Of a stretch of 64,000 nucleotides of DNA, positions 31,035 to 63,879 are shown piece by piece; position 1 is the stretch's first letter; the number at the start of each line of letters is the position of its first letter. The notes beneath the pieces are model-generated. The model was not told where the DNA came from and did not search any database. It saw only the letters and a program-made list of their open reading frames with translations. The translations under genes were made by a program, and so were the position numbers. Source of the stretch: Basidiobolus meristosporus CBS 931.73 (lineage: Eukaryota > Basidiobolomycota > Basidiobolomycetes > Basidiobolales > Basidiobolaceae); NCBI GenBank assembly GCA_002104905.1, contig MCFE01000078.1, positions 117,023-181,022 of the forward strand, given 5' to 3'.

Positions 31035-31494
31035 AGCGGTAGTGGGAAGTCTAAGGCTAGTGATAGCAATACGCTGCGTCCAAAGCAATAGTGCTCACGC
31101 TCCCTTACTCTGCAGAAAAGTGTATGGTGCCAGTCACGTTTACCCCCACTAAGCTTGAGTGTATCTTGGAGTGGACTATGTCCATCACTGGTACAGAAAT
31201 CATGGGTATAGAAAAAGCGATTTAATAAATACACCAAGCAATTTTAGGATATCAACTAACTACTTCGTCAACGATGTGCTGCGTGCCATTGAGGAAACAA
31301 AATGTGGTCTGGGTTATGTTGATTGATCCCAAAATACAGGTTTTCCTAAGATATCCAAGCGAAATGGAGTAGTGATTAGTCGGCATCAGCGTCTCTCATT
31401 GGGCATGCACTGAGTGATGGAGTAATTCAGAGTGATTAATAATTGATATCTAGTGTTTATTAATGATTGATGTACAGCGTATATTGGTGGAAAT

Positions 31495-32301
31495 TCAAGC
31501 TTTGTTGAACTTGTCGGTGAATGTGTTAACTGTGCAGTAATTGTAAGAATACCAACTGGCGTCATTACGGTTGCAGTACTGGGAAGTCTTGTTGTATCCG
31601 CCCACTGACATCCATGTACCAACACCGTTGTTAGTGATTCCGTAGCCCCAGCATTGGGATTGGTCAACTTGTGTGAAGTCCATGTAGAAGCCGAAGTTGG
31701 GGTAGTTGAAGTCATCGTCCAGCACGCGGTAGGTCATTTCACTGAAGATCCCGGCGGCCATTTGGTTAGTTGGATTCAATATCTTTTGGACCATCTGGTA
31801 ATCCGATAGCAAGTTGTAGCGGCCAAAGTTGCGTCCTCGAATGCTGCTGACGAGCTGCCATTCACTTCCGTCCTTGACATAGGTGGTGAATACGGCATCA
31901 TTGTGAATGAATTCAAGATCAAGTCGGAGGCGGTACTGAACCCCAGCGCGCCAATCGAATGGGATACCAGCATTGATCCAGCCAGAGCCGGTGGAATCTC
32001 CATTTTCACCCACTTTCACCAGCTCCACCGAGGTGTCACCCCCGTTGTTATTCATCCAGAACCTGAGTGATTTTTTGTCGTTATAGTCGTTGGCAAGGTA
32101 GAAGCTGCCGATGTTGAAGTGGAAAGCGACCCACTGAGCTGACTGGACATCATAGCCTTGCGGGACCTCAAGGTTGGTCTCGACTCTGACAATGGGTGGA
32201 ATATTACCCTCCGGGAAGTAGACGTAGTTCAGCAGATTCGATGCCTTTGCCAGCATCGGCAGGATGGTAATGGCACCGGCGAGGATAGTCTTGAACAGCA
32301 T
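31495..32301 (-). CDS. 268-aa secreted protein of unknown family, copy 1
   Basis: An intronless gene with a signal peptide (residues 1-20, cleavage likely after LAKA). The mature part is rich in aromatic residues and beta-strand-like segments (VAFHFNIGSFYL, GVQYRLRLDLEFI, AVFTTYVKDGSEW, FGFYMDFTQVDQSQCWGYG) and has three cysteines. I do not recognise it for certain; the middle resembles DUF3472-type jelly-roll domains, which is a guess. It converges on the repeat-protein gene 460 bp away. A TATA box lies 33-42 bp upstream of the ATG. Copy 1 differs from the others mainly at its C-terminus (NYCTVNTFTDKF). Confidence 0.85.
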   Translation of the reverse strand: MLFKTILAGAITILPMLAKASNLLNYVYFPEGNIPPIVRVETNLEVPQGYDVQSAQWVAFHFNIGSFYLANDYNDKKSLRFWMNNNGGDTSVELVKVGENGDSTGSGWINAGIPFDWRAGVQYRLRLDLEFIHNDAVFTTYVKDGSEWQLVSSIRGRNFGRYNLLSDYQMVQKILNPTNQMAAGIFSEMTYRVLDDDFNYPNFGFYMDFTQVDQSQCWGYGITNNGVGTWMSVGGYNKTSQYCNRNDASWYSYNYCTVNTFTDKFNKA

Positions 32302-32321
32302 TTTGATGGTGCTTGATTATC

Positions 32322-32343
32322 CTCGTCGACGAGTTTATATATA
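32322..32343 (-). promoter_or_regulatory. 12-bp palindrome and TATA box before copy 1 of the 268-aa gene
   Basis: TATATATAAA (minus strand, 32343-32334) is followed by the perfect palindrome CTCGTCGACGAG (32333-32322), then 20 bp to the ATG. The same arrangement occurs at 39686-39707 and 46481-46502; unit 4 keeps the TATA box (53510-53519) but the palindrome is mutated. Confidence 0.55.
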
Positions 32344-35300
32344 CGAGTCCTAATGCGATGGCTTCCGTTTATGACTTTGGATCTATTCATGCCCTTGTTT
32401 AGAAGATGAACCGTCAATGCCGTTATCAGGCTGTTTATCAGAACGAGCTCTTGGAAGGGAATAAATCCTCACCTATCTGCCTGAATTAATCAGAGATCAT
32501 TGTTCGGAAACTTCCTTCCGTGTGATTAGCAACATTCTAATGTCCAACTTTGGGCACTCTTCTACGTAGATTATGCGCCTTGGAATTTCTCTGGATTACC
32601 ACCCCTTCCAGCTTATCTTTGTTTCATATAAATATAATAATACGAGAGTCGTTCCCATCACTGGAGGAGAATTGAGCACTCCATATGGAGGACAGTGGTC
32701 CAAGGACTCGGATGTTTTCCATGTATGATCATTAGTAAATATATCTGCGATAAATTAAGCAATTGATTCCAGATCTGTGATAGTGTCGGAAGTTATTACC
32801 TGATTCATCAAGCATTCATTTGTGAAATGCCCAGACTTCTGCAGTAAAAACCCATCTAGAGCTCACTAATCAGGAAAAGCTATTCCAAATAACGAAAATT
32901 AGAGTGAGCCATCCCAATTGAAACCAGCCGGAATAGATTGCCCTAATTCGATGTGATGCTGAATGAAACGGGCAAGTGTTTGGCTTTCATTGCTCATCAG
33001 TAAAGCTCCGATTGTTCTATATGCTGTGATACCCATCTTCATAAATATATTAGAAATCAATCGAACGTCCTCTTAGAGGTTTAGAAGAGTTGCAGAAGGA
33101 CGGAATGGTGATAACTTCTTCAAAGCTTAAAATGGCCAGGAAGCTTTGAATGTACCCTTCTATGGCGCATTTCTTATTTGTTTTTCTCAAAAATAGCTTC
33201 ACATGTTTGCACCTTATTCTTGTCCTGAAAAGTGAAAATACTCCTAAATCGCATGGCAACCGCCAACATTCACATTATCCAGAAGACACACACTACACTC
33301 TCAACTTCCATGTAGTACTTTGCAGATGAAATAAACATCAATTGACTAGGCAGTGAGTGAGACTGATCAGCAATAGAAGCTCATCCTTTAGCAGACACTA
33401 AGAAACCATAATCACATCCGCAATTTAGTATTGAAGGCATGAAGTATATGCAAATTGGTACATGTGTTATAAGCAATCGGGTATTGCACCCTCCACATGT
33501 TGTTTGATCCGTAGAAAATATTGCCATTGCTAAAACCTGAAATCGGCTTTAAATTGATTACTCTAGTTGTTTTACATACAGACGTTAAGTGAGCGATCCA
33601 TGTTCTTTTGCGGCTCGGCGACACTTCCCACCATCATTGTAGCAAACTAGCATGATCTGTGATGGCAAAGGTTGGGAAACTACAGATTACTTGGGAGCAA
33701 TGTGATTCAAAAGAGAGCGCTCGTGGCTACTCCCCATCATACCTCCTGGAAACTGATTTGAAACGAGATTAACCAAGTTAGTCTGGTCCTCTTCGGTCTC
33801 AACTGCGCCTACGCAAGTAGCTGTCCATATTTCATGATGGAGGTAGTCAAAATGGCTTAAAAAGCAAGGGGAGATAAACCCAACAAGGCTGCAATGGTAT
33901 GACAGTACTCCTGTACAATCAATAACAGCTTGAAACAGAAATAGACCCAGGTTGCTTCGAGACGCCACCGAGTCCTAAGGTCACCTGAAACAGTCGAGCC
34001 AGTAGTAACAATAGCATGGGCCTAGACCATAAAGACCAAAATAGTCTGCTTCCATTAGCTTGGATTCAACGCATGGACCTGGCAGAAATGCGCGGATCAC
34101 CCCACCACTCATACAGCAACTGATTAACCTGTTTAGTTCAATAACAATCGCAGTGAGCTTGTTTGCTTCGATACAGCTCGTGATTAGCTTAATTTTCCGG
34201 ACAAAATGATGATAAACTTCCGTACTGGATGCCACCCATCGAAATCCGCTACACACTGTTCTGGATTACTATCCTTGGAATATCTGGCCGAATCTTTTGC
34301 TAATCTCAAAATGGCACGCTGTAAAATTATTTCAACCTGAACCGGCCCGAAGTTTTATCATCTGGATTCTGTTAGCCAAGTCACGTTATTTCCACAACCG
34401 GGATCTCATAAGTTGGGAGTGGCCATTTATGATTGGTATGCATGCTGATGAAAGCCCGAACTATCGCACATGTCAACACTACCCCCTGAACTTGGGAAAA
34501 ATGACATTTGGAGTCTGGGAGTCAATCGTATGCTTTCTATAGTGTGACTTTTACTTCTGCAGAAAATCATTAAGTTATACGTTTAAACGAGCCATCTCAG
34601 TGTAGCGCTAAGAAAGTAGAGGAAGGTCACATGTCCACTCGGCCATATCGTGTAAGGATGGAGTGTTCTGGAAGAATATGAAAAATTAAAATAGGCTATG
34701 TTAACACACAAATGTAAAGCGATAACATTATCATAGGTGGCTATCATATAACAATGCGCTTCCATTGCATGTTGAGTTGGGGATGCGAAATAAAAGGATA
34801 TGGTGTCTTTAAGGGAATGTTAATCACCAATCGCCAAGATATTTATTTCAATCAATAAGATCAACGAAGTCTGGTATCATTGAGGTATTTCTTTACAAGT
34901 AAATGCAGAGATAAATGGTGATGAGAAAGCTGATTTAGATTGTGGTAGGAGCGAAGTGTCCTGCAAAAGAAAAAGTACAAGACCCAAATGTTGACCAAAG
35001 ATAGGTAAACTACCATAAACCCAACTTACTCGAATATTAGGAATAAGCTGCTAATTTAATGCTCAGGGGACAAGACCAAAAAGAATGCATGAAATGCAAT
35101 GGAAGAAACCTGTCATACATCATCACCGCAAGCTGAGAGCCTTATAGTTATACTTCTATTGCATAATATATTAAGCCCGAAAACGCTTACATCATATTTC
35201 ACTCGCAGCTTACCTGGATCGAACCATTCCACTTTGATTAGATCCAATTTTATGAATTCTGAAATATCCACATCATCTCACCACTATTAAAGGATAGTGC

Positions 35301-35700
35301 ATCATGGTTCTAGTTGTTACGGAATCGAGTCACATGGTATATACACTCCCAATGACCCTGTTCCAAAACGGTTCTCAATCGTAGCTTGACCAAAGACGGT
35401 TTGTGCATCCTTTCAGTTCGCAACTCCTATAATCGGTACATAGCATTATTAATTTAGTAATGCTTGATCGACGTATCAGTGATTGTATCTCTAGTGTATA
35501 GAAGCAGCAGAACCTTCTAGGTGGTGTAATGCATACATCGAAATCCACGCTCGGCATGCTCGACTCAACGGACACCGTTGTAGATGATCCCAGGATTCAT
35601 TCGACAGAGGTGATTAGTGACTTCCATATCAAGCGTTATCTGGAGGTGAGAATTGAGAATGGCTTATCTGCGGTGTCTACATTTAATATTGACGTGTTGG
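32344..35700. other. Conserved non-coding part of unit 1
   Basis: No convincing gene. Blocks such as 33040-33260, 33400-33620 and 33980-34260 recur in unit 2 with high identity, but short ORFs in them are not kept across all units and lack signal peptides or known motifs. Unit 2 has about 180 bp at 41092-41272 that unit 1 lacks. Confidence 0.55.
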
Positions 35701-35770
35701 GATGAAGAATGTGCACAATGGAACGCGGAAAAAACATATAATCAGGGTTGAAGACTTGATGGTCATCAAA

Positions 35771-38356
35771 ATGAGGTCTACTGTCGCGCTGGTAGCCGGC
35801 GTATTGTTTGTCATCAGTGTTGAGGCACTACCGCAGCCACAACTAAATAATGACAGTAACTTGTCATTATTGCCATCTACATCCATTGAGCAAGTCGACA
35901 TCGGTTTTGGAGAAGCACAGCAGTCATCGATATCAACAGATAGATATACACCTGTGCCAACCAAGCTGGTGAAGACAGGTATATGCTCTGCGCCACCAGT
36001 CCCCGCAGCTTACACCTCAATCAAGCAAAGACCCACCTCCAAAAGTACGAAAGAAAGCCCAACAGGGAGCACCTTCACATCCAATCACCTTACTCCCACA
36101 TCTAAATTGCGGCTAGTAACCACGCATTCGGTGCAGAAAAGTGAATGTTCTCGACCACCGATACCCTCAACACACGCCACTGAGCCTCGACCCACCTTGA
36201 ACAATTCAAGCAGGACGGTGAGCGGTACAACTGCATACAAAGCGTCACCAATACGAACACGTTCGGTGCCGACAAGTGAATGCTCTCAACCACCAGGACC
36301 TCCAACATATTCCACCACTAGCACAGCAAATACCGAGAAGAGCACACATGTGAAGGCAACAGTAGTGCCCACACATTCTGCGCGGCAGAGCGAATGCTCT
36401 CAGCCACCAGCGCCCCCAACGTATGCCTCCATTAATCCTAGACCTACTGCAAAGAGCACTAACGGACTGGAATCCAGAAGCAACATTGAATCCAAGCATG
36501 TTACTTCTACACCCAGGGTGTCACTATTGCCAAACCACTCAGTACAGCAAACCGAATGCTCACAACCACCCGCTCCCCCAGCGTATACTTCCGTTAAACC
36601 TGGACCTGCTGAAAAGAGCGCTCAGGAAAGGGTAACAGGGAGTGAAATCGATTCGAAGCGTCCCACTTCTACATCCAAAGCGCCACTAGTGCCCACACAC
36701 TCAGCGAAGCAAAGTAAATGCTCACAACCGCCTGCACCCCCAACGTATACCTCCTCAAAGCTTGGACCTACCGTAAAGAGCGCACAAGTAAAGCCAACAA
36801 GGAGTGGAGTCGACCCAATGCACAGTACTCTTATGTCAAAAGCGTCACTAGTACCCACGCATTCTGAGCATCAGACCAGCTGCTCGAAGCCACCAGCCCC
36901 CCAAACATATACTTCCCTTAAGCCGAGATCCACTGCACAGAGCACTCACCGGCTGGCCTCCAGAAGCAACATTGATTCCAAGCATGTTACTTCTACATCC
37001 GTGGTTCCACTAGTGCCCACGCACTCTGTACAGCAAAGCAAATGTTCACCACCACCGGCTCCCCCAACCTATACTTCCATTAAACGTAGCCCTACTGTAA
37101 AGAGCGCTCAGGCAAAGGTAACAGGGAGTGAAATCAATCCCAAGCATGCTACTTCTACATCATCAGCGCCATTGGTGCCAACGCACCATGAGCAGCAAAG
37201 CGAGTGCTCACAGCCACCTGCTCCCCCAGCGTATACTACCATTAAGCCTAGACCTACTGCTGAGAGCACTCAAAGAAGAGTACCAGGGAGTGAAGTCAAT
37301 TTCAGGCATGCTTCTTCTGTGTTCAAGACTTCAGTGGTGCCCACGCATTCTGTGCAGCAGAGCGAATGTTCACCGCCACCAGCTCCCTCAACTTATGCTT
37401 CCATTAAGCGCAGACCTACCGCCAAGAGCGCTCATAGAATAACAACAGAGGGTGTAATTGATGCCATGCATGCTTCTTCTGCGGCCCAGGCTTCACTATT
37501 GCCCACGCATTCTGTGCAGCAAAGCAAATGCTCACCGCCACCGGCTCCCCCAACGTATACCTCCTTTAAGCCTATACCTACCGTAAAAGGCACCCAAACA
37601 GTGGCAACAGAGAGCGAGGTCGACTCTATACACGCATCTCCTACTTCAAAGGCCTCACTAGTACCCACGCATTCTGAGCATCAGACCAACTGCTCGCAGC
37701 CACCTGCTCCCCCGACGTATACCTCCATTAAACCTAGACCTAGTGCAGAGAGCGCCAAGGGAAGAGCAGGAGGGAGTGAAGTCAATTCGAAGCATGCTGC
37801 TTCTACATCCAAAGCGCCACTGGTGCCCATGCACTCAGAGAAGCAAACTGAATGCTCACAGCCACCTAGGCCCCCAACGTATACTTCCATTAAGCCTGGA
37901 CCGACCGTAAAGAGCACTCAAGGAGGGGTGACAGGGAATGAAGCCGATACCATGCGCGCTACTTCTACATCGAAAGCGTCGCCAGTACCTACCCATTCCG
38001 AGAGCCAGAGCAACTGCTCACAGCCGCCCACCCCACCTATCCATACTTCCGATATGTCTAGTCCTACTGCAAAGAGTACTCAGAGAAGGGCCACAGGGAG
38101 TGACATTGGTTCCAGGCATGCCACTTCTACGTCCGAAGGCAAATTGGTGCCTACACCATCGGTCAAGCAAAGTGAAAGCGCTCAATCTACTTTGCCCTCA
38201 ACACATGCCACTGGACCTGCTAGGAAGAGCCCCAGTGACAGGACCACCACTATTTCTGCGCCCAAAGTGTCATCAATGCCGACACATTCGGCGCAGAATA
38301 GTGAGTGCCCTCAACCACCTACACCACCAACGTACGTTGCTGAGCCGTCCCTATGA
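35771..38356 (+). CDS. Secreted Ser/Thr/Pro-rich 54-residue-repeat protein, copy 2
   Basis: About 861 aa from the signal-peptide start MRSTVALVAGVLFVISVEA. The architecture is that of copy 1, with about 15-16 repeats of 54 residues and one Cys in nearly every repeat. It retains the N-terminal segment SNLSLLPSTSIEQVD that copy 1 has lost between two GAC triplets, and lacks the extra repeat of copy 1. It ends at the same TGA (PTYVAEPSL). Copy 1 and copy 2 are nearly identical over long stretches, so one arose from the other recently or they undergo gene conversion. Confidence 0.8.
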   Translation: MRSTVALVAGVLFVISVEALPQPQLNNDSNLSLLPSTSIEQVDIGFGEAQQSSISTDRYTPVPTKLVKTGICSAPPVPAAYTSIKQRPTSKSTKESPTGSTFTSNHLTPTSKLRLVTTHSVQKSECSRPPIPSTHATEPRPTLNNSSRTVSGTTAYKASPIRTRSVPTSECSQPPGPPTYSTTSTANTEKSTHVKATVVPTHSARQSECSQPPAPPTYASINPRPTAKSTNGLESRSNIESKHVTSTPRVSLLPNHSVQQTECSQPPAPPAYTSVKPGPAEKSAQERVTGSEIDSKRPTSTSKAPLVPTHSAKQSKCSQPPAPPTYTSSKLGPTVKSAQVKPTRSGVDPMHSTLMSKASLVPTHSEHQTSCSKPPAPQTYTSLKPRSTAQSTHRLASRSNIDSKHVTSTSVVPLVPTHSVQQSKCSPPPAPPTYTSIKRSPTVKSAQAKVTGSEINPKHATSTSSAPLVPTHHEQQSECSQPPAPPAYTTIKPRPTAESTQRRVPGSEVNFRHASSVFKTSVVPTHSVQQSECSPPPAPSTYASIKRRPTAKSAHRITTEGVIDAMHASSAAQASLLPTHSVQQSKCSPPPAPPTYTSFKPIPTVKGTQTVATESEVDSIHASPTSKASLVPTHSEHQTNCSQPPAPPTYTSIKPRPSAESAKGRAGGSEVNSKHAASTSKAPLVPMHSEKQTECSQPPRPPTYTSIKPGPTVKSTQGGVTGNEADTMRATSTSKASPVPTHSESQSNCSQPPTPPIHTSDMSSPTAKSTQRRATGSDIGSRHATSTSEGKLVPTPSVKQSESAQSTLPSTHATGPARKSPSDRTTTISAPKVSSMPTHSAQNSECPQPPTPPTYVAEPSL

Positions 38357-49500: not shown

Positions 49501-49660
49501 AATCTACGCTTGGCATACTTGTTTCAGCGCACACCATTGTTGATGATCCCAGAATTCATTCGACCGTGGTGATTAGTGACTTCCATATCAAGCGTTATCT
49601 GGAGGTGAGAATTGAGAATGGCTTATCTGCGTTTTCTGCATTTAATATTGACGGGTTAGG
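46503..49660. other. Conserved non-coding part of unit 3
   Basis: Shorter than in units 1-2: a segment corresponding to about 33,260-33,980 of unit 1 is largely missing or diverged at 47340-47580. No gene is supported. Confidence 0.5.
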
Positions 49661-49729
49661 ATGAAGAATATGCACAATGGAACGCGGAAAAAACATATAA
49701 TCAGAGTTGGAGCCTTGATGGTCATCAAA

Positions 49730-52213
49730 ATGAGGTCTACTGTCGCGCTGGTAGCCAGCGTATTATTTCTCATCAGTGTTGAGGCACTACCGCAGTCACA
49801 ACTAAATAATGACAGTGGCTTGCCATTATTGCCACCTACATCCATTAATCAGGTCGACATCGGTTCTGGAGAAGCACAGCAGTCATCGATATCAACAGAT
49901 AGATATACACCTGTGCCAACCAAGCTGGTGAAGACAGGTATATGCTCTGCGCCACCAGTCCCCGCAGCTTACACCTCAATCAAGCAAAGACCCACCTCCA
50001 AAAGTACGAAAGAAAGCCCAACAGGGAGCACCTTCGCATCCAATCACCTTACTCCCACATCTAAATTGCGGCTAGTAACCACGCATTCGGTGCAGAAAAG
50101 CGAATGCTCTCAACCACCGATACCCTCAACACACGCCGCTGAGCCTCAACCTGCCTTGAACAAATCAAGCAGGAGGGTGAGTGCTACAACTGCATCCGAA
50201 GCGTCACCAATACGAACACATTCGGCGCCGACAAGCGAATGCTCTCAACCACCGGAACCTCAAACGTATTCTTCCACCAGGACAACAAATACCGAGAAGA
50301 GCACACGTGCGAGGGCAACAGTTGTGCCCACACATTCTGAGCAGCAGAGCCAATGCTCACAGCCACCAGCGCCTCCAACGTATGCCTCCATTAAATCTAG
50401 ACCTACTGCAAAGAGCATTAATGGGCAGGCGTCCAGAAGTAACATTGATTTAAAACATGCAAATTCTATGTCCAAAGCTTCACTGATGCCCACGCATGCG
50501 GTGCAGCAGAGCGAATGTTCACCGCCGCCCGCTCCCTCAACGTATGCTTCCATTAGGCCTAGACCTTCTGCAAAGAGCGCTCGGGAAAGGGTAACAGGTA
50601 ATGAAATCAATTCGAGGCATGCTGCATCTGCATCTGCATCCGAAGCACCACTAGTACCCACGCACTCGGGGCAGCAAACCGAGTGTTCACAGCCACCTGC
50701 TCCCCCAACGTATACCTCCTTTAAGTCTATACCTACCGTAAAAAGCACTCAAACAAGGGCAACAGAGAGCGAAGTCGGCTCTATACATGCAACTCCTACT
50801 TCAAAAGCCTCACTAGTACACACGCGTTCCGAGCAACACACCAGCCTCTCACAGCCACCTGCTCCCTCAACCTTTACTTCAATTGAGCCTCAACTCACTG
50901 CTAAGAGCGCTCAGGAAACAGTAACAGCGAGTAAAATTAATTCGAAGCATGCTACATCTATATCCAACACACCACCAGTGCCCACACACTCAGAGCAGCA
51001 AACTGAATGCTCACAGCCACCTACACCCCCAACGTATACTTCCGTTAAGCCTCAACCCACTGCTAAGAGCGCTCAGGGAAGAGCCGTACGAAGTGAAATC
51101 GAATCCAGAACTGCTACTTCGGTGTCCAAGGCTTCACTGATGCCCACGGATTCCTCTCAGCAGAGCGAATGTTCACAGCCACCAGCTCCCTCGACGTATA
51201 CTTCTATTAAACCTAGAACTACTGCAAAGAGCACTCAGGAAAGGGTAACAGGGAAGGAAATTAATTCGAAGCATGCTACTTCTACATCCCAAGCGCCACT
51301 AGTGCCAACGCACTCGGGGCAGCAGAGCGACTGCGCACAGCCCCCTACTCCCACATTATATACTACCATTAAGCCTAGGCCTTCTGCAAAGAGCTCTCAG
51401 GGAACGGCAGCAAGGAGTGAAATCAATTCCAGGCATGCTTCTGCGTCCCAGGCTTCACTAGTGCCTACGCATTCGGCGCAGCAGAGCATATGTTCACCGC
51501 CACCCGCTCCCCCAACGTATACTTCAATTAAGCCCAAACCTACTGCCAAGAGCGCTCAGGAAAAGGTAACAGGGAGTAAAATCAATTCGGAGCAGGCTAC
51601 ATCTATATCCAACGCACCACCAGTGCCCACACACTCAGGGCAGCAAACTGAATGCTCACAGCCACCTAGGCCCCCAACGTATACTTCCGTTAAGCCTGGA
51701 CCTACCATAAAGAGCACTCAAGGAGGGGTGACAGGGAATGAAGCCGATACCATGCGCGCTACTTCTACATCGAAAGCGTCACCCGCACCCACCCATTCGG
51801 AGAAGCAGAGCAACTGCTCACAGCCGCCCACTCCACCTACCTATACTTCCATTATGTCTAGACCTACTGCAAAGAGTACTCAGAGAAGGGCCACAGGGAG
51901 TGACATTGGTTCCAGGCATGCCACTTCTACGTCCGAAGGGAAATTGGTGCCTAAACCATCGGTTAAGCAAAGTGAAAGCGCTCAATCTACTTTGCCCTCA
52001 ACACATGCCGCTGGACCTGCTATGAAGAACCCCGGTGACAGGACCACCACTATTTCTACCTCCAAAGTGACATCAATGCCGACACATTCAGTACAGGATA
52101 GCGGATGCTCCCAACCACCTACACCCCCAACATACGTTGCTGAGCCGTCCCCAAGAAACGGCAGTGGGATGTCCAAAGCTAGTAATAGCAATACGCTGCG
52201 TCCAAAGCAATAG
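49730..52213 (+). CDS. Secreted Ser/Thr/Pro-rich 54-residue-repeat protein, copy 4 (longest C-terminus)
   Basis: About 827 aa from MRSTVALVASVLFLISVEA, with about 15 repeats of 54 residues. Most have one Cys in CSQPPAPPTYT-type cores; one repeat has Leu instead. It reads through the position of the TGA in copies 1 and 2 and ends RPKQ, so it probably shows the ancestral C-terminus. Its middle repeats differ much more from copies 1-2 than the flanks do, which is expected of repeat-driven recombination. Confidence 0.8.
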   Translation: MRSTVALVASVLFLISVEALPQSQLNNDSGLPLLPPTSINQVDIGSGEAQQSSISTDRYTPVPTKLVKTGICSAPPVPAAYTSIKQRPTSKSTKESPTGSTFASNHLTPTSKLRLVTTHSVQKSECSQPPIPSTHAAEPQPALNKSSRRVSATTASEASPIRTHSAPTSECSQPPEPQTYSSTRTTNTEKSTRARATVVPTHSEQQSQCSQPPAPPTYASIKSRPTAKSINGQASRSNIDLKHANSMSKASLMPTHAVQQSECSPPPAPSTYASIRPRPSAKSARERVTGNEINSRHAASASASEAPLVPTHSGQQTECSQPPAPPTYTSFKSIPTVKSTQTRATESEVGSIHATPTSKASLVHTRSEQHTSLSQPPAPSTFTSIEPQLTAKSAQETVTASKINSKHATSISNTPPVPTHSEQQTECSQPPTPPTYTSVKPQPTAKSAQGRAVRSEIESRTATSVSKASLMPTDSSQQSECSQPPAPSTYTSIKPRTTAKSTQERVTGKEINSKHATSTSQAPLVPTHSGQQSDCAQPPTPTLYTTIKPRPSAKSSQGTAARSEINSRHASASQASLVPTHSAQQSICSPPPAPPTYTSIKPKPTAKSAQEKVTGSKINSEQATSISNAPPVPTHSGQQTECSQPPRPPTYTSVKPGPTIKSTQGGVTGNEADTMRATSTSKASPAPTHSEKQSNCSQPPTPPTYTSIMSRPTAKSTQRRATGSDIGSRHATSTSEGKLVPKPSVKQSESAQSTLPSTHAAGPAMKNPGDRTTTISTSKVTSMPTHSVQDSGCSQPPTPPTYVAEPSPRNGSGMSKASNSNTLRPKQ

Positions 52214-54997: not shown

Positions 54998-55347
54998 TGT
55001 TGTAAAAATTCGTAATTCCACCTAAATATTCACCTAACTTAGTCACTTAGATCATCACCCTTAAAATCCTAGAGAATACTGACCAAATTCCTTGTTGGGA
55101 TTTACTTAGAATATTTTCACCAAAATACCAGGTACCCAGAACATGAAAATTCTCAAAGTTGTCCAAACAGCCCCAAACTTTGCACACATGTTCTTGGGAC
55201 CTTCCTTAACCTATTCTATGTGTTTGTAATGCCAAGACCAGGTAAAAGTATAAATACCACTATTACATTCAATAAATCATTAAGTAAAAATAACATAATC
55301 TACTTGTTCTCCCAATCACTTCCAATATCTCCAAGACTCTTACAACA
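54998..55347 (+). repeat. 5' LTR of the Copia element
   Basis: 350 bp from TGTTGTAAAA to ...TTACAACA. Related blocks occur at 26040-26350 and 27180-27430 (minus strand). GGTTATGAGCCCC directly after it resembles the Copia primer-binding-site pattern next to initiator tRNA; no 3' LTR exists here to confirm the boundary. Confidence 0.75.
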
Positions 55348-55351
55348 GGTT

Positions 55352-58094
55352 ATGAGCCCCAAGCTGTCACTCTCTGCAATGTCTACTACTGCTATTACTG
55401 GAATTTTCCCCTCTGCTGAAAAGTTGGATGGATCTAACTACCAAGTGTGGAAGGTGAAGATGAAGATGCTGCTACAAGAAGGAGGCCTTTGGGATATTGT
55501 CATGGGAGAAGAATGCCCTCCTAAAAACGTGGGAGAGGAAGCCTTAAAGTACCAGAAGAAAGAACAAAGTGCCTTTAACTGCATTTGCCTTAATGTCAAG
55601 GACAAATTGCTAATTCAATGCTCAAGAGCAAAAACGGCAAAGAATGCCTGGAAAGCATTAGAAGACACCTACCAGTCATGTTCAGCTGCTAAGAAAATGT
55701 ATTTGAGATAAAAATTCTTTACTAAAAAGATGCTGCCAGGAGAAGAAATGAAAAATCTAATTAACAGAATTACCCTGCTGGTAGATGGGATGGAATCTGT
55801 GGGCGTACCAACTACTGATGAGGATGTGATAGTTACCATCCTGAATAGCCTGACAGACAAGTTTCAGGGCCTTGTATTAGCCCTAGAGTCCAGAACTGAA
55901 GATTTGACCTTAAATTACATATTTGGAAGGCTCCTGGATGAAGAATTAAGAAAATCAAGCACCAATAGGAAGGAAGAAGAAAATGCTTTAATAAGCAATG
56001 ATAACCAACAAAGGAGGTACCCACAACCCTACAAAGGCAACAGCAACCTATTTTGCAACTACTGCAAAAGGAAAGGACACACATCAGACTGGTGTCTCAA
56101 AAAGAAAGATAATCAGCAAAAGAAGCTTGAATATGGAAATGATGCAACAACTGAAAATAGACTATTCATATCTGCACTAAATATGACCACAAACAAGGAT
56201 TCTCAGACATGGTATATTGACTCTGGAGCATCTCAACACTTTATACACCAAAAAGAACTTTTTACCCCATATCAAGAAATTCCAATTAAGAAGGTTTTCA
56301 TGGGTGATGATAGAACACTTGATGCGGTGGGAGAAGGAACTATCCAAGTAAACCTTAGAAGAGTGAAGGAAGCCATACACTGACCTTTAAAGAAGTACTC
56401 AATGTACCAGAAATAGCCAAGAACCTACTCTCTGTAAGCAAGGCCACAGCAGAAGGACTCAGTTTCAGTATTGACAATTCTGGATGCAGGATTACTGATC
56501 AAAATGGTGCCCATATTGCTTTGGGCATCAGAGATCAGAATCTATACCAGTTGACTTATATTCCATCATATTTGGAAGCCAATATAAGTAACTTAAATGA
56601 AGAAACACCAATGCTTTGGCACAGGAGATTTGGACACATCAATTTTGATTATTTGCGCAAAATGATCAAAGATCAGCTAATTTCTGGAGTGAAAATTGAT
56701 CCCCCAGCTAATTTGGAGCACTGTGAAGCCTGCATATATGGGAAACAAGCCAGGCAACCATTCAAGAGCTCTGGGTTAATCAAAACTAAGAAAAAATTAG
56801 ATCTAATTCACTCAGATCTGAGTGGATCTATGCAAAATTTATCCTTAGGCAGGATGAAGTATTTAATCACTTTTATTGATGATTATACAAGATACACATG
56901 GGTCTACTTCATGGAGAGAAAGGAAGAAGCTCTGTCTAAGCTCAGGGAGTTTAAAGTCATGGTGGAGAGAGAAACTGGTGAAAAAATCAAGAAAATACGC
57001 TCTGACAATGGTGGTGAATATACCTCAAAACTCTTCATCCACTTCTGCAAAATTCATGGGATAAAGCAAGAGACTACTGTACCATACTCCCCACAGCAAA
57101 ATGGAGTAGCAGAACGAGCTAACAGATCAATAATTGATATGGCAAGATCTATGATCCATGATCAAAAATTATCCTATGATTTTTGGGCAGAATCAGTTGC
57201 CACTGCTGTATATCTTAAAAATAAGAGTTATAACAGAATACTTCGTGATTCTACTCCATTTGAAGCATGGTTTGGATACAGACCAAGTGCAGAACATCTA
57301 AGAATATTTGGGTGTACAGCATATGTCAAAAAACTGGCCGGAAATCAGTCAAAATTTGAGCCAAAAAGTGTAAAATGCATATTTTTGGGCTACTGCAATG
57401 AGAGTAAGGCATACAGACTCTACAATACCAAAGCAAAGAAGCTGAGCAAGTCCAGGGATGTGTTGTTTGATGAAAATTCAAAATTTTCACCAAAAATGAC
57501 ACCAGATGATGTCAAAAATTTGATCTCAAGTCCACCAATTGTCAGGATTGAATCAGAGCAAAACAATGAAACTTTTTCACTCCAGAGGACTCTACAACCG
57601 TGGTTCAGCCAGAATCAGTGCCCAGGAATATCCCAGAAGTGATCATTCCAGTATCAAATGCCTGGAGATCCAATTGGGCAAGAAATATCCCAAATTACTA
57701 TATCAATGAGGGTACAAACTTAGTCTATGCCTATTCAGTCCATATTGATGAGCCCCAGACTGTAAAAGAGGCCCTAAATAGCCCTCAGACAAAGTTTTGG
57801 AGATCTGCAATGACTGAGGAATATCAGGCCCTAATGGAAAATCAAACTTGGGACTTAGTCAAATTACCGATCAGCCAAAAATCAATTGGATGCAGATGGG
57901 TCTTCAAGACAAAATACAAGGCTGATGGTACAATTGAAAGATACAAAGCAAGACTTGTAGCCAAAGGATACTCTCAAACAAAAGGACTTGACTATACTGA
58001 GACCTTTGCACTGGTAGCAAAGTTTAATTCCATCAGATTAATATTGGCTATTGCAGCCAAATATAGGTTTTTTACTCATCAAATGGATGTAAAA
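55352..58094 (+). pseudogene. Copia gag-pol, broken and truncated
   Basis: Gag begins at ATG 55352. An in-frame TAA at 55709-55711 interrupts it, after which the same frame runs to 56383. The zinc knuckle CNYCKRKGHTSDWC lies near 56055-56096 and the protease site YIDSGAS near 56214. A frameshift near 56375 leads into the integrase frame: the HRRFGH pre-integrase motif, HSDLSG, the D-D-E core with IRSDNGGEY and QQNGVAERANR (to 57642). Another shift near 57600-57640 leads into RT (CRWVFKTKY, KARLVAKGY). One stop and two shifts mean it is inactive. Confidence 0.9.
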
Positions 58095-58105
58095 GGGTTA
58101 GGGGG
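58095..58105 (+). repeat. Telomeric junction 1 (Copia break point)
   Basis: GGGTTAGGGGG directly follows the broken RT codon and precedes the first element end. It is read as telomere addition at a broken end. Confidence 0.7.
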
Positions 58106-58180
58106 AGGAAAGTCACCAAGTGGTGAAATCTTTATTTACTTATGACAAGTATCTAAAGAAGCCAAGTTAATCTGAACACA
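58106..58180 (-). mobile_element. SINE-like family A, 75-bp 3'-end fragment
   Basis: Identical or nearly so to 62175-62250, the 3' end of the longer A copy, and truncated at its 5' side. It includes the 3' hairpin TCACCA-AG-TGGTGA (58113-58126). Telomeric tracts lie on both sides (58095-58105, 58182-58197). Confidence 0.75.
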
Positions 58181-58181
58181 T

Positions 58182-58197
58182 TTAGGGTTAGGGGGGG
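58182..58197 (+). repeat. Telomeric junction 2
   Basis: TTAGGGTTAGGGGGGG between the A fragment and the LINE. Confidence 0.85.
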
Positions 58198-58251
58198 AGA
58201 CAGTCACCAACAGGTGAAATCTTTATTTCAGTTGAAACAAAGAAGCCAGCG

Positions 58252-61005
58252 CTACTGTTGTAGCTTTGATACAAGAGTGTGTAGCTGAGGGGAATTTGTA
58301 GGTAAGTTAATAAGAAGTGATGATAGTTCTTCAGTGCTAAACACACTGTTTAGTGGGAAGGGGGGTAGCAAGAGAGGTAAGAATGACTTGTGAACAACAT
58401 TAATGAGGGGAATGTGATAAGGATTGATATTCATCATAAATGGAGTGTGCTGCTGCAGATATTGCTGCCAAAGGTCTGTCAAGTACTTCAGGTAGGCCAG
58501 CTTGGGTTTTTCTGACTGCAGAATAAAGTGAGCAAACTTCTTGACTTCAGGATCTCCAAGTATAGTTCTCCAGCAGGAACCAGGTGTTGTGTGGTGTGTT
58601 CTCTTCCAGGCCTTAATCAGTGGGTTGTTGCAGTTGTGAAGTCTGAGGTATAATCTGGTTCTAAGGTAGAGAAGTCTGATCTTATAGGGCATAAACCCAA
58701 AAGCACCAAGAATAGCATGTCTGTAGGGGCATTCAGGCAAATGAGGCACCAAGGAGGTAATGCACCATACTGCAAACTTGTCAAGCTTAGTGCAGTCTCT
58801 AGAAGTAAGAGAGAGAAGTGGTAAGCCAAATTCCAGGACAGGGAAGACAAACTGCTTGAGTAGAAGGAGGCAGCTGGGAGCTGAAGTTGTAGGAGGAGTA
58901 ACAGCCAACAGCTTGTGGAGTGCCTGTCTTGCCAGGATAATTCTCTTCTTCAGGTGTGCTCCAGAGTCTAGTCCAGTAGGAAGGAAAGGAAAGCCAAGAT
59001 ATGTAGCAGAAACCTGAGCAGGTAGAGTGGAGTTCTCCAGGTTGATGGGAGAGCCCAAAGGTACTGTCTTTGCAATGGAAAGCTGGAGATTATTCTTCTG
59101 CAGATACTGGTGGATGGTCTGGGAGTCTTGTTGCACATTGGAGGAGGATGTTCTGATGTCATCAGCAAAGAGAGTAACCAGGCAGTCAGCTGAGAGTCTT
59201 GGGAAGTCATTCAGGAAGATGGCAAACAGTATAGGACCAAGCACAGAGCCTTGAACCACTCCATTAGGAACTGAGAACACAGCTGATTGCTCACTTGGGT
59301 GCAGAATTCTTGCTTGTGGATCCAGAAACAGAGACCTGACAAGGAGGGTGAGAGAGGTACTGGAGAAGCATTGCAACTTGGACCAAAGCAGATTTCTGTC
59401 AACTGAATCAAAGGCCTTAGTAATATCAAACAGAACAGAGGGATACTTGCACTGGAGAGAGTGATCTTGGCTAAGTATGACTGCATATTCCAAGGAGAGG
59501 CCAGGAACAAAGCCAAACTGTGCAGGATGGAACTTGAGGGAGTCAGAGTAGAGCTGCTGAGCAAGCAGAAGCTCAAACACCTTTCTGCAGGTGGGCAGCA
59601 GAGATATTGGCCTGTAGGAGCTAGGATCCAGATGCTTTCCTTTACCCTTGTACAGTGGCAGAACATTTGCAAAGGACCATTCCTCAGGAGTAGAAAGCTG
59701 GGCTGAGCATTGCTGAAACAGTGGAAGCAGAAGTGCAGACATGGCCTTGGTACTAGTCTTCAGAAGCTCATAGGAGATTGTGTCCACACCTGGAGCAGTA
59801 GAGTTGGGAAGCCTCTTGAGCACATTATGGATTCTCCTTTGATCAAGTGCAAGTGGGATGGGCAGAGTCTTGAAGTCAGGATGAAAGCCAGGAGTTGAGT
59901 ACTGCTTTGTAGAGAAGAAGATGTTAGCCAGCTGTTCTGTTGAAGGTAACTTCCAGGAAGAGGGCCTCATTGCCCTGTAGAGTCTTGATACTGTTCTTGT
60001 GATAGAGTTGGAAGATTGCAGAGGCAAAGAACTCATAATATGATCCCAGAGCTGAGTATGCAGAGTGTGGTGAATTGCCTTGGAGTGGTGTATTGCTGTC
60101 AGGAGGAGTTTCTCTGTTTTTGGGTTAGGGAAACTCAGGTAGCTTTGTTGCAGGGCTGAAACAATGGATTCCCATTTTCTTGAGGTAACAGCAGTAGTCT
60201 TGCATGGCAGTGAGAGGGAGGCAGACACCAGAATCAGATGCTTCACAAAGAGCCAGGCATAGTTGAGATCATCTGGCAGAGAAAGTAGCAAACTGGCAAG
60301 CTTCAAGTAGTTCCCAAAGTCTTTCTTCTGATTCTTGGTAGCTTTGTGGGTGAGCACAGTAAGTTTTGGCAGCTTCTTCTTCACAACTGGTTGCATAGAA
60401 AGGGACCAGGCTGGGTGGTCAGAGGCTCTCAAGGATCCTAGCTCAGCTCCAGAGAATTGCTTGACTTCATTCACAAAGTAGAGGGCAGCAGCAGAAGGGC
60501 AGATCCAGTCAACACATCTTTTCTCAGATTGAGCACCCAGTGCTAGCAGATGGCTTTCTCTCAGGAAGTTCAGTAGGAATGTGGACCTTGGCTTCATTCT
60601 TGCAGTCAGAGTAGTCTTGTTCTAAGGATGGGGAATGTTGAGATCTCCAAGCAAGATAACAGGTGTTGATATAGATTGCTGGTATTGCTGAACTTTCTGG
60701 CATATAACTTGCACTTCCTGAAGGGCAAGACTTGGAGGCAGATAGCAGAGCACCAGACTGATAGTTGGCAACTGGAGAGCAGCACAGTAAGGGGAGTAAA
60801 GAGGAACACAGAGCTGAGGAGTATTGATGGTAGAAGAGATGAAGCAGATGGAGGAGGTATTCTTTGTTCTAGGAGTAGAAAAGTAATATAGATTAGTCAA
60901 AAGTATAGAGGGTAGCTGGACATCAATCAAACACAGGAGGGAAAATCTTGAAAGAAGTCTCTCTAGAGTTGGTCTTGATGGCTGTATGCTGTTGCAGTTA
61001 AGCAA
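58252..61005 (-). pseudogene. LINE ORF2: endonuclease and reverse transcriptase, one in-frame TAG
   Basis: The APE-type endonuclease starts with LLNCNSIQP and has GDLN, VDWI and SDH motifs in order. RT has SSYRPISLLP, QFGFVPGLS, FDITKAFDSVD, GVVQGSVLGP and the catalytic LFADDI. A single TAG (60622-60624) right after GDLNIPHP splits it; the frame on both sides is the same. The RT part alone is 781 aa from ATG 60597. The endonuclease part has no ATG of its own: the frame continues upstream into ORF1 with only the TGA at 61021-61023 between. Either the stops are mutations or translation depends on readthrough or reinitiation. Confidence 0.88.
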
Positions 61006-61020
61006 CAGAACTTCAGGTAG

Positions 61021-62125
61021 TCAGGCAGAGGTTGTAGCTTCTTCAGAGGCAGCATTGACAATGTGACCTGCAGAGTCCCAGAGCTCTTCAAATGGTGCAT
61101 CACTTAAGTCAGCAAGGAGGGAAATGGCATGATTCTTGAGGAAGTATGCCACATCATAGGAGGGGGCTTGTCTCTTGATGGCAGCAAAGAAAGACAGAAT
61201 GGCAACATGGGCTGGAGGCTTGTTGAACAGTAGAGAGTCAGAGGATTCAGATTCTTCAGGCACTATCTTGAAGTCAGTTTTCAGCCAGTTAAGGTTCTTC
61301 TCCACAAAGGCAACAAATGGGTCAGCAATGTTTTGGTCTAGGATAACCTCCAGAATCTTCCCTTTTCTCCAGGCCAGGTTGACAATTCTTGAGAGCTGAA
61401 TATTGCATGCCTTGAGTGCTTTCCTGATGTTTGAGAATGGGAGTCCAGGGAACTTGCTTCAAGTACACCACAGTCCAGGTAGAAGCTGGTGGTAGGTTTG
61501 CTGGGGGCTTGTAAGTCCTTCTGTGTTGCAATGGAGCTGAAGTAGTCAGATTGGAGTCCACATTCTCAGTAGAGGGTTTTCTTGATGTGTCTTGCTGAAT
61601 GGTACTGGAGCTGGATGTGTTGATAATTCTTGCTAGAACCTTGCCTGCATAAGTCTGAGGTATAGCTGAGGTGACTGTAGAGGTGGTGGCAGCTGGTGCA
61701 GGTGGAGAGGCAGAAACTGAAGCAGGAACTGAGGTCACCTGGGAGAAGGCAGTAGAAGCAGGTTTTCTGGGAGGAACAGAGTTCACTATCCAGTTGTTCT
61801 GTAAAACACTGGAGTAGCTTTTCTGTGGAACAGGATCTTGCTCTTGAACAGGAACAGAAGCAGGAGGCTGGGGCTGAGCAGTGGTGGTAAGGCAGTGGCA
61901 CTCCAAGGAAGCTTTTTGCAAGGCATCTCTGGCAGTGTTCAGGGCAGTATTGGCTTCATTCTTGAGCTTCTTGCATTGGGCATCCAGTCTCTTGTTTTCA
62001 ATAGCCAGGGCAGTATTGGCAGCCTCTAAATCAGCAATTCTCTTCTCAACTGCAAGGAATCTCTGAAGAAATGCATCAGTAGAAGTGCTGGCATCTGGGA
62101 GAGCAGTGGCAGGAATAGAGTCCAT
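61021..62125 (-). pseudogene. LINE ORF1: coiled-coil gag-like protein, one frameshift
   Basis: Begins at ATG 62125 (MDSIPATALPD). Residues about 20-75 form a heptad-rich coiled coil (VEKRIADLEAANTALAIENK), followed by a Pro/Ser/Thr/Ala-rich linker. At about 61450 the frame changes by one base: VVYLKQV continues as PGLPFSNIRKALKACNIQL in the next frame and on to the TGA at 61021. The region after the shift (IVNLAWRKGKILEVIL, FVEKNLNWLKTDFKI) looks like an RNA-binding fold. The downstream part is in the ORF2 frame. Known LINE ORF1 proteins bind the element RNA; that role is inferred. Confidence 0.75.
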
Positions 62126-62166
62126 TGACAGTGGGCTTCCTGGAGGCAAGGAAAGGGGACAGGCAG

Positions 62167-62174
62167 ATTAGGGG
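62167..62174 (+). repeat. Telomeric junction 3
   Basis: ATTAGGGG between the 5' end of LINE B and the 3' end of the A element. Confidence 0.7.
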
Positions 62175-62678
62175 AGGAAAGTCACCAAGTGGTGAAATCT
62201 TTATTTACTTATGACAAGTATCTAAAGAAGCCAAGTTAATCTGAAGTAATTCCTAGAAAGCTAGGTCTGAGAGATATCTTCCTGGTAAGCCAGGTCTGAG
62301 AGTTGAGAAGCTGAGTGGTACTATATTTCCTAGTTAGCTAGGTCTGAGAGAGGTTTCCTGGAAAGCCAGGCCTGAGAAGTGAGAATCTGAATATATCTGA
62401 GCTAAGTTATACTGGTTTGCGGTAGCTGGTTGTGGCCGGAAAGGCCAGTAGACTGGGGAACTGAGATGAATTTCTGGGCAATCACTGGCCAAATTTACTA
62501 GCAAATCTGCCATTAGCATTTCAAGGATTTCAGCAATCAGAGCCTTTACTTTGCCAATGGTTGATCAAGCATCTCCAATGAGCACACATCAATTTATTAA
62601 TCAAATTTTGCTGGATCCAGGATTTGAACCACAACCATGGTATGAAGGTTAGGGATAACACAAGGCTAAGTGTTCTTG
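62175..62678 (-). mobile_element. SINE-like family A element, about 500 bp, tRNA-like head
   Basis: Read on the minus strand the 5' end has a box A-like TAGCCTTGTGTT (62668-62657) and a box B GGTTCAAATCC (62630-62620), the arrangement of RNA polymerase III tRNA promoters. A body with four mini-hairpins (62252-62370) follows. The 3' end carries the hairpin TCACCA-AG-TGGTGA (62182-62195) and the AAATAAAGATTTCACC segment shared with LINE B. No coding frame is present. Telomeric tracts bound both ends. The box spacing is a little shorter than in a tRNA and the T-arm pairs poorly, so this is a relic tRNA head, not a functional tRNA. Confidence 0.6.
62252..62370. other. Four mini-hairpins with compensatory changes in family A
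   Basis: Stems CCTAG/CTAGG (62252-62265), CCTGG/CCAGG (62281-62294), CCTAG/CTAGG (62329-62342) and CCTGG/CCAGG (62357-62370), with loops AAAG, TAAG, TTAG and AAAG, each followed by a GTCTGAGAG-like spacer. Confidence 0.8.
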
Positions 62679-62691
62679 GTTAGGTTAGGGG
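62679..62691 (+). repeat. Telomeric junction 4
   Basis: GTTAGGTTAGGGG between the A element and the second B fragment. Confidence 0.8.
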
Positions 62692-62828
62692 AGACAGTCA
62701 CCAACAGGTGAAATCTTTATTTCAGTTGAAACAAAGAAGCAGCGCTACTGTTGTAGCTTTGATACAAGAGTGTGTAACTGAGGAATTTGTAGGTAAGTTA
62801 ATAAGGAGAGATGCTAGTTCTTCTGTAC
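62692..62828 (-). mobile_element. LINE family B, 137-bp 3'-end fragment
   Basis: Matches 58198 to about 58335 with few changes, including the hairpin TCACC-AACA-GGTGA (62698-62711). It is 5'-truncated and followed by CTTAGGGTTTAGGGTT (62829-62844). Confidence 0.8.
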
Positions 62829-62844
62829 CTTAGGGTTTAGGGTT
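62829..62844 (+). repeat. Telomeric junction 5
   Basis: CTTAGGGTTTAGGGTT, slightly degenerate telomeric sequence after the truncated B fragment. Confidence 0.65.
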
Positions 62845-63455
62845 CTAGTGCTTTATTGGGAAATTTGCACAAGGAGTGCAATCTTGAAATATGACAAAGT
62901 CATATGAATATAGCAACTATTATAAAATGAAAACTACTTTGCCAGTAAAAGGGGTGAAGGAAACTGTAAAAGCTATAAAGGAAAAGCTGGGGACACAAGA
63001 AATTTACAGTACCATTCATTGCCCTACACTGCAAGTAAGCTCAAGGAACATAAGGGGAAGCTTTACCAGACTGAACTAAAGAATCTTGCTACAGATCACA
63101 AAGGAAACAATGAGGACTGCAGAAGCTTTAAAGGAAACCAAGGTTCCCATAGTGATGGCTGACTGGGAAATCTACAGAAGCATTCACTGATCCAAAAGAA
63201 AGAGGCAAGAGGCTAGAGTAATGTCATCAAAAGAAAATGAACCATAAGCTGAAGTTCAGGCACATGCATCAAGTCCAATCATGCCAAAGACAGCTGCAGA
63301 AGCTTGAAAGGAAACAGAAAGTCTCCATTGGGGTGACTCCAGTGGAAATCCACAGTCAGCCCTTTACATCACCAGAGGTGGGCAGTGTCTGAAAGAAAGG
63401 AAGGAAAGAGCAAGAGAAAAGGGAAGGAGAGAAGAAAAAGGAAGGAGAGAAGAAT
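62845..63455. other. Subtelomeric sequence of unknown origin with internal repeats
   Basis: No coding frame of note. A degenerate internal repeat is visible: GCAGAAGCTTTAAAGGAAAC at about 63119 and GCAGAAGCTTGAAAGGAAAC at about 63297, each followed by similar text about 170-180 bp apart. It turns into a purine tract (about 63390-63455). It may be another telomere-attached element family. Confidence 0.5.
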
Positions 63456-63471
63456 GGGGTGGGTGGGTGGG
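63456..63471 (+). other. G-quadruplex motif
   Basis: GGGGTGGGTGGGTGGG: four G-runs with single-T loops, the most stable parallel G4 class, on the G-rich strand at the start of the 86-bp satellite. Confidence 0.85.
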
Positions 63472-63472
63472 A

Positions 63473-63879
63473 AATCTTATAGGTGAAGGATCTTGTTAAA
63501 GATCACATCACTAGGTTAGGGGAGATTGTTAGGGAAGGAGCATCAGGTCAGAAGACCCAATCTTATAGGTGAAGGATCTTGTTAAAGATCACATCACTAG
63601 GTTAGGGGAGATTGTTAGGGAAGGAGCATCAGGTCAGAAGACCCAATCTTATAGGTGAAGGATCTTGTTAAAGATCACATCACTAGGTTAGGGGAGATTG
63701 TTAGGGAAGGAGCATCAGGTCAGAAGACCCAATCTTATAGGTGAAGGATCTTGTTAAAGATCACATCACTAGGTTAGGGGAGATTGTTAGGGAAGGAGCA
63801 TCAGGTCAGAAGACCCAATCTTATAGGTGAAGGATCTTGTTAAAGATCACATCACTAGGTTAGGGGAGATTGTTAGGGG
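63473..63879 (+). repeat. 86-bp subterminal satellite, 4 full copies plus a partial fifth
   Basis: Copies start at 63473, 63559, 63645, 63731 and 63817, exactly 86 bp apart with essentially no differences. Each has the inverted repeat GATCTT-GTTA-AAGATC and a telomere-like block AGGTTAGGGGAGATTGTTAGGG. The last copy runs into the telomere. Confidence 0.95.

Follow-up and report, generated by a model that had tools for sequence, protein, structure and literature searches.

Eel UnaL2 and UnaSINE1 are a pair consisting of a long interspersed element (LINE) and a short interspersed element (SINE) with a shared 3' tail, and in Drosophila the retroelements HeT-A, TART and TAHRE lie with their 3' ends toward the centromere as serial 5'-truncated copies. 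The Drosophila elements are described as elongating telomeres through targeted retrotransposition (PMC5537684), and SART1 of Bombyx mori as inserting within telomeric repeats, of which it needs at least 3 (PMC7265360). In fungi, the MoTeR elements of Magnaporthe oryzae are reported to have their 5' ends nearest the chromosome end and to be arranged head-to-tail with short TTAGGG tracts and telomerase healing; MoTeR2 is a nonautonomous partner sharing both termini with MoTeR1 (PMC7367193; PMC12857005; PMC12810828). MoTeR, FoTeR (Fusarium oxysporum) and Cnl1 (Cryptococcus) are presented as being of the restriction-like endonuclease (RLE) type or as grouped with such elements, CRE/SLACS (PMC12857005; PMC12810828). 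In the available part of PMC10088271, none of the telomeric retroelements listed is from Basidiobolus. Here we describe a LINE and a SINE that are stacked on a telomere of Basidiobolus meristosporus CBS 931.73, at the right end of a 64,000-nucleotide stretch of contig MCFE01000078.1 (positions 117,023 to 181,022, hereafter the window).

We conclude that a telomere-dedicated LINE and an RNA polymerase III (pol III)-type SINE using the LINE machinery, together with families sharing their tail and a third element, probably insert at chromosome ends by end-primed reverse transcription, followed by telomerase re-capping. The newest part of this system is the telomere-dedicated SINE.

Results

Stacked elements at the window end

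The window covers the final 64 kb of contig C1068 (181,022 bp), and both end at the same base. The stack at this end starts, on the inner side, with a truncated copia-type long terminal repeat (LTR) element, followed by a SINE 3' fragment, (TTAGGG)2, a LINE and a full SINE. Farther out come a fragment of the LINE, a short TTAGGG tract, a third element and 86-bp repeats, and the terminal telomere closes the contig (Table 1). The four LINE and SINE ends named by the original prediction, which had been made from the sequence of the window alone, are positioned as it claimed, in a single orientation and with TTAGGG tracts between them. Its account of 58095-62844 was correct as to content and too narrow as to extent, because the stack continues outward with the third retroelement (62843-63472) and the 86-bp repeats. 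A second copia copy (L071) matches through query position 3094 of 3095 and then continues; the copia element of the window breaks off near 58094, where the SINE tail lies.

The telomeric 12-mer TTAGGGTTAGGG had 13 matches in the window versus 0.00 in shuffles: 11 in the terminal telomere, one in the spacer at 58182 and one at 19218 on the minus strand. The small number of matches outside the terminal telomere indicates that most spacers amount to a single hexamer or part of one.

On the plus strand, the LINE and the SINE read antisense, with their RNA 3' ends facing inward, and the third element, judged from its 3'-anchored copies, is oriented in the same way. The plus strand therefore consists of the telomere G-strand followed by the element complementary DNA (cDNA) strand, which is the order expected for synthesis primed by a TTAGGG 3' end. 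As a separate observation, the GC skew of the plus strand was +0.25 in 58196-62166, +0.20 in 62172-62690 and +0.22 in 62843-63472, compared with -0.03 in window positions 1-58000. The plus strand, G-rich in all three elements, is also the one that carries the G-rich telomeric repeat.

Orientation at other contig ends

The whole assembly (1311 contigs) was searched for the same elements, and the orientation of copies relative to contig ends was mapped. The LINE tail (29 nt, up to 2 mismatches) was found in 879 places (797 plus, 82 minus) and the SINE tail (up to 2 mismatches) in 483 (450 plus, 33 minus), with 0 matches to the control patterns, reversed in the case of the LINE. For the third element, 33 genome matches were obtained; 30 of these begin at query positions 1-4, the 3' end. 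Telomere 24-mers are also nearly all on the plus strand (7428 versus 81 in the whole assembly), suggesting that the contigs are oriented telomere-right. The plus-strand excess of element tails looks like a reflection of this contig orientation.

Orientation was mapped for the first 100 LINE tails and the first 100 SINE tails listed, for the best 40 matches to the 3' 2 kb of the window LINE, for 39 SINE places (38 listed contigs counted once each, and C424 twice) and for the first 65 LINE-protein hits listed. Since short contigs are uninformative, the counts refer to contigs >40 kb; this set aside 60/100 LINE tails, 50/100 SINE tails, 8/40 LINE 2-kb matches, 9/39 SINE places and 11/65 LINE-protein hits. 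Contig numbers are size ranks in lexicographic order (61/61 known sizes were monotonic), which allowed the sizes of unfetched contigs to be bounded.

With respect to the nearest contig end, the 3' end pointed inward in 40/40 LINE tails, all of them within 18.3 kb of the end and 35/40 within 10 kb, and in 50/50 SINE tails, 49 of them within 10 kb. The same orientation was found in 31/32 LINE 2-kb matches, 30/30 SINE places and 53/54 LINE-protein hits. When contigs of all sizes were included, 91/100 LINE tails, 35/40 LINE 2-kb matches and 38/39 SINE places still followed the nearest-end rule. Contig C424 (312,558 bp) has a SINE cap at both ends, on opposite strands. Except for arrays on C726 and C558 (see Discussion), the copies examined on contigs >40 kb are confined to telomeres in one orientation, as telomere-targeted non-LTR retrotransposons are, and the stacking at the window end is confirmed as a genome-wide pattern.

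Junctions and truncation points

At the 3' junction, TTAGGG with extra G's (a run of 4-7 in total in 89/100) is followed by AGACAGTCACC in the LINE or AGGAAAGTCACC in the SINE, and the TTAGGG strand passes directly into the antisense (cDNA) strand at the element 3' end. There were 653 exact 24-mer LINE tails, and a pattern requiring TTAGGG 0-8 nt before the tail gave 535 matches, with 5 double counts among the first 100 listed. For SINE tails with a telomeric 3' junction, 408 pattern matches were obtained (13 double counts among the first 100 listed; the total of 483 tails comes from another pattern). The elements thus have telomeric sequence at the 3' junction, as telomere-targeted elements do. 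The perfect telomeric tract before the element, measured at 100 junctions in the fetched loci, was at most 12 nt long in 94, 13-24 nt in 5 and longer in 1, and terminal telomeric tracts had a median length of 207 nt (23 ends).

Truncated 5' ends in the fetched loci joined telomeric sequence directly in 45/67 cases. Truncation coordinates of copies with an intact 3' end were distinct in 44/44, with two pairs within 5 nt of each other, suggesting that most copies were made separately. Full-length copies made up 43/53 of the SINEs and 3/45 of the LINEs, where the query LINE of the window is itself one of the 3 and 8/45 copies were cut by the end of the fetched sequence.

The SINE and the shared 3' tail

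The 42 full SINE copies are mostly about 521 nt long, with a median pairwise identity of 98.3%. The original prediction had called the shorter element SINE-like, and we identify it as a SINE: a B box of the GGTTCAAATCC type was present in 39/42 full copies and an A box TAGCCTTGTGG also in 39/42, the A box of the window copy being degenerate. TTTT was absent from 41/42 copies (3.8 expected), and this near-lack of T-runs fits the requirement of pol III transcription through the whole SINE. Together the boxes form a predicted pol III promoter inside the element. We considered whether the head of the SINE derives from a tRNA and could not demonstrate this: ARAGORN gave no match in window 62000-63500, and an Rfam tRNA was not listed for window 62100-63500 or for 6 loci. 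We also note an internal duplication of about 70 nt in the SINE (q81-148 and q158-224, about 83% identical).

The hairpin TCACC-N4-GGTGAAATCTTTATTT is present in both LINE and SINE tails, and in the RNA the two tails have in common AAUAAA, the UCACC-N4-GGUGA hairpin and a C-run. The folding of the SINE tail hairpin alone was only slightly above shuffles (z -1.23), so that the case for the hairpin rests on its sharing between families. Further families carry the same tail, one of them with diverged LINE sequence (L017, 69-74%).

LINE coding capacity and endonuclease

The original prediction described the LINE as near-complete. This is justified by its length of 3,971 bp, with the reservation that, compared with L004 and L009, it lacks about 0.6 kb on the 5' side, including an upstream part of the frame of open reading frame (ORF) 1, and that the ORF1 and ORF2 frames are both broken. 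Window ORF2 has one stop in the endonuclease part; none of 12 further copies used for comparison, among them one of a diverged family, has this stop. The best 40 scored genome matches to the 3' 2 kb of the window LINE were 99-100% identical.

The proposed APE-type endonuclease is borne out by the fold of homologue P0002, and the TRAS1 endonuclease is one of the solved structures that tie as its nearest fold; a PDB search with the sequence of the endonuclease piece gave no match at E<=10. The metal-binding Glu is replaced by Asp in 12/12 copies read and in P0002 and P0004, versus Glu in 37/37 other aligned homologues with a residue at this position. Patterns for restriction-like endonuclease motifs (CCHC, RHD/N) were run on homologues P0001-P0004 and P0006 rather than on the broken ORF2 of the window, and were absent from 5/5. 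A zinc-ribbon-like stretch in ORF1 gave only a weak Pfam match (PF14690, E 0.17) and was not used.

Motifs of the form GGGTTAGGG or CCCTAACCC occur inside the elements, at window 60122-60130, at L004 4596 and L009 4640, and in the SINE between the A and B boxes. The ORF2 motif of this type is retained in the diverged LINE L017 (4237).

Telomere caps and telomerase

Telomere starts were sampled in 28 contigs among C1-C302, using a pattern that needs a base other than T at the fifth position upstream of the first repeat. In 22/28, the tail of a LINE, a SINE or the third element was present within 5 kb of the telomere start (hand cross-reading). The other six ends comprised one with a LINE, two with another tail-sharing family and three with LTR elements, so that 25/28 sampled ends carry telomeric retroelements near the cap. 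In C58, C202 and C205 (L073, L076, L077) the telomere sits directly on truncated LTR elements; such ends look like healed breaks.

Two pieces of the telomerase (TERT) RNA-binding domain were found at C880, both over the curated cut-off and one spanning a TAG. In the control, 0/14 genomes had a match to this domain.

Other features of the window

Coordinates are collected in Table 1. The 86-bp repeat, which separates the third element from the terminal telomere, has two TTAGGG-like motifs per copy, and its copies are 100% identical. Two similar degenerate tail-like motifs (TTTAGGGGGATG...) at 42344 and 48376, 16-22 kb from the end, have the orientation of the array and may be old relics. Repeats of 162 bp occupy 28946-38138 and 50324-51938; in the ORF at 49652-52213 they encode a repetitive, secreted-looking protein.

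Table 1. Features at the right end of the window, from the inside outward.
Feature	Position	Strand	Basis or remark
Copia-type LTR element, truncated at its junction with the array, innermost part of the stack	55073..58094	+	two ORFs with Pfam domains (gag, pre-integrase, integrase, SH3-like)
Incomplete telomeric tract AGGGTTAGGG between copia and SINE 3' end	58094..58103	+	TTAGGG at 58098
SINE fragment, 5'-truncated, 3' end inward	58104..58176 (approx.)	-	100% identity to SINE q1-74
(TTAGGG)2 spacer	58182..58193	+	telomeric 12-mer match
LINE, near complete, 3,971 bp	58196..62166	-	without about 0.6 kb of 5' sequence found in L004, L009
LINE 3' tail: AAUAAA, hairpin UCACC-UGUU-GGUGA, C-run	58203..58231	-	folding z -2.98
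LINE ORF2 (APE-type endonuclease and reverse transcriptase)	58252..61020	-	PF00078; fold of homologue P0002
LINE ORF1 frame (coiled coil), broken, 5'-truncated	61021..62166	-	TGA-CTA at its end, in frame with ORF2
TTAGGGG junction, LINE truncation to SINE 3' end	62168..62174	+	G's common to the SINE's own G-run
Full-length SINE	62172..62679 (approx.)	-	B box 62620-62630; degenerate A box about 62659-62668; LINE-like 3' hairpin tail
Spacer TTAGGTTAGGGG	62680..62691	+	TTAGGG at 62685
LINE 3' fragment, 5'-truncated	62690..62826	-	sequence match to LINE
TTAGGG/TTTAGGG spacer	62830..62842	+	sequence reading
Third telomeric retroelement family	62843..63472	-	hairpin UGCAC-N5-GUGCA (differs from LINE/SINE hairpin) and AAUAAA
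86-bp tandem repeat, 4.7 identical copies	63473..63878	.	TTAGGGGAGATTGTTAGGG in every copy
Terminal telomere (TTAGGG)n, contig end	63886..64000	+	repeat reading

Discussion

The orientation of the copies and their 3' junctions support the priming by the telomeric G strand that had been proposed for the window; the mechanism itself we infer. The LINE protein would bind the shared 3' hairpin of a LINE or SINE RNA, and the C-run at the RNA terminus would pair with the GGG-3' end of the telomeric G strand. Extension of this end by reverse transcription would add an antisense copy outward; copying would mostly be cut short in the case of the LINE and mostly run to completion in that of the SINE. 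Telomerase would then add TTAGGG to the new end, and that end could take the next element. The primer would be a natural or eroded end rather than a nick inside the repeats.

The last point separates this scheme from a TRAS-like one, in which the APE-type endonuclease nicks the G strand within intact double-stranded repeats, so that insertion is internal and long tracts are lost later. For MoTeR, long interstitial tracts are reported to be unstable and the stable ones to have no more than 2 repeats (PMC7367193), and such later loss would yield the same picture. We nevertheless consider a TRAS-like nick less likely, because proximal tracts are at most 12 nt long in 94/100 although the ends carry about 200 nt, and because the metal-binding Glu that is conserved in the other homologues has become Asp. 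The short tracts and the Glu-to-Asp change together argue for end priming in preference to a nick inside the repeats. Spread between chromosome ends by recombination or break-induced replication, without retrotransposition, is a good deal less probable. A recombination route is described for MoTeR arrays (PMC7367193), and the window LINE shares one truncation point (GGCAG joined to ATTAGGG) with the LINE of C47. Against this route, the truncation coordinates of the 44 fetched copies all differ, and the mix and order of families vary between the ends mapped. Finally, the window end could be misassembled, or ordinary dispersed LINEs and SINEs could appear terminal because contigs are broken at repeats. 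With 1311 contigs, such breaks would indeed place copies near contig ends, but they could not produce one orientation (40/40 and 50/50). Telomere arrays also follow directly at many contig ends, and C424 is capped at both. We therefore reject an assembly artefact, which we regard as extremely improbable.

Several observations weigh against end-primed insertion with telomerase re-capping as the full account. Internal copies and random orientation had been named in advance as results that would speak against the original prediction. Random orientation is rejected by our counts; among the places examined, C726 (56500-63000), with an inverted array beside a correct one, and C558 (93000-100000), with an interior array at 95.2-99.5 kb of 218 kb, are exceptions. 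The first is the misfit among the 54 LINE-protein hits and the second is, strand-wise, counted among the 53 that fit; both are possibly old end fusions or misjoins. Some interstitial tracts have at least 5 repeats (C110, C95, C424), 22/67 truncated ends were not scored as telomeric, some of them joining LTR elements, and 3/28 sampled telomeres sit on LTR elements. The truncation point common to the window and C47 LINEs lies outside the 44 counted. Microhomology at 5' junctions was 1.42 versus 0.77 in the null (0/5000 resamples). Joints between stacked elements supply much of this signal, and since the eight joints to long terminal arrays have a mean of only 1.0 (hand count), the excess alone does not demonstrate telomerase healing. 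The expectation that the youngest copies are outermost was rejected, as copies adjacent to the terminal telomere were not measurably younger (p 0.34 for the LINE, 0.25 for the SINE). Target-site duplications are unreadable within the repeats, and no new insertion was observed.

A more far-reaching reading, which we put forward tentatively as a possibility, is that the telomere-only SINE and LINE form a chromosome-end maintenance layer beside telomerase. A few G's at a 3' end would suffice for its extension by LINE or SINE cDNA and for re-capping. With the primer provided by the natural end, the Asp-bearing endonuclease would have lost strength or taken on another task.

If end-primed insertion is correct, Basidiobolus, an early-diverging fungus that has a telomerase gene, harbours a system of telomeric retroelements that stack on chromosome ends and encode an APE-type endonuclease. 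This system would stand outside the RLE-type group, to which the remaining fungal cases compared here belong. We found no report of a telomere-dedicated SINE in the open-licence literature. On Basidiobolus in connection with telomeres and retrotransposons, that literature yielded only a study of DNA methylation in Mucorales. For frogs, the available part of a published account describes a SINE-derived minisatellite that is subtelomeric and intact SINEs that are genome-wide. A telomere-confined SINE would be a short, easily followed template for studying how a LINE protein chooses its RNA and its primer, and would allow one to ask whether retroelements rescue eroded ends despite telomerase.

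Comparison with known systems

Like MoTeR, FoTeR and Cnl1, the Basidiobolus LINE is a fungal non-LTR element at telomeres. It differs from them in its APE-type endonuclease, in the absence of the RLE zinc-finger pattern from 5/5 homologues and in a partner element with pol III boxes. Judged by these sequences, the C-terminal restriction-like endonuclease of the MoTeR/FoTeR/CRE clade appears to be lacking, which argues against membership. An APE-type endonuclease and a telomere-repeat target are instead shared with TRAS1 and SART1 of Bombyx mori, and the former is the feature expected of the TRAS/SART group (R1 clade). In contrast to SART1, the Basidiobolus tracts mostly have no more than 2 repeats, and a C-run forms the tail, with no poly(A). 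The APE fold in homologue P0002 also sets the LINE apart from the endonuclease-lacking Penelope-like telomeric elements.

Telomere elongation by retrotransposition would be a feature in common with HeT-A, TART and TAHRE. Unlike in Drosophila, Basidiobolus has telomerase gene pieces and TTAGGG caps, and no poly(A) joints were seen; the TERT RNA-binding domain pieces at C880 and the caps suggest that the elements do not replace telomerase. As in eel UnaL2 and UnaSINE1, the SINE and the LINE have the hairpin and the surrounding 3' tail in common, pointing to a SINE that shares its 3' tail with a partner LINE. In contrast to the eel pair, the Basidiobolus copies examined, those of C726 and C558 excepted, sit at chromosome ends.

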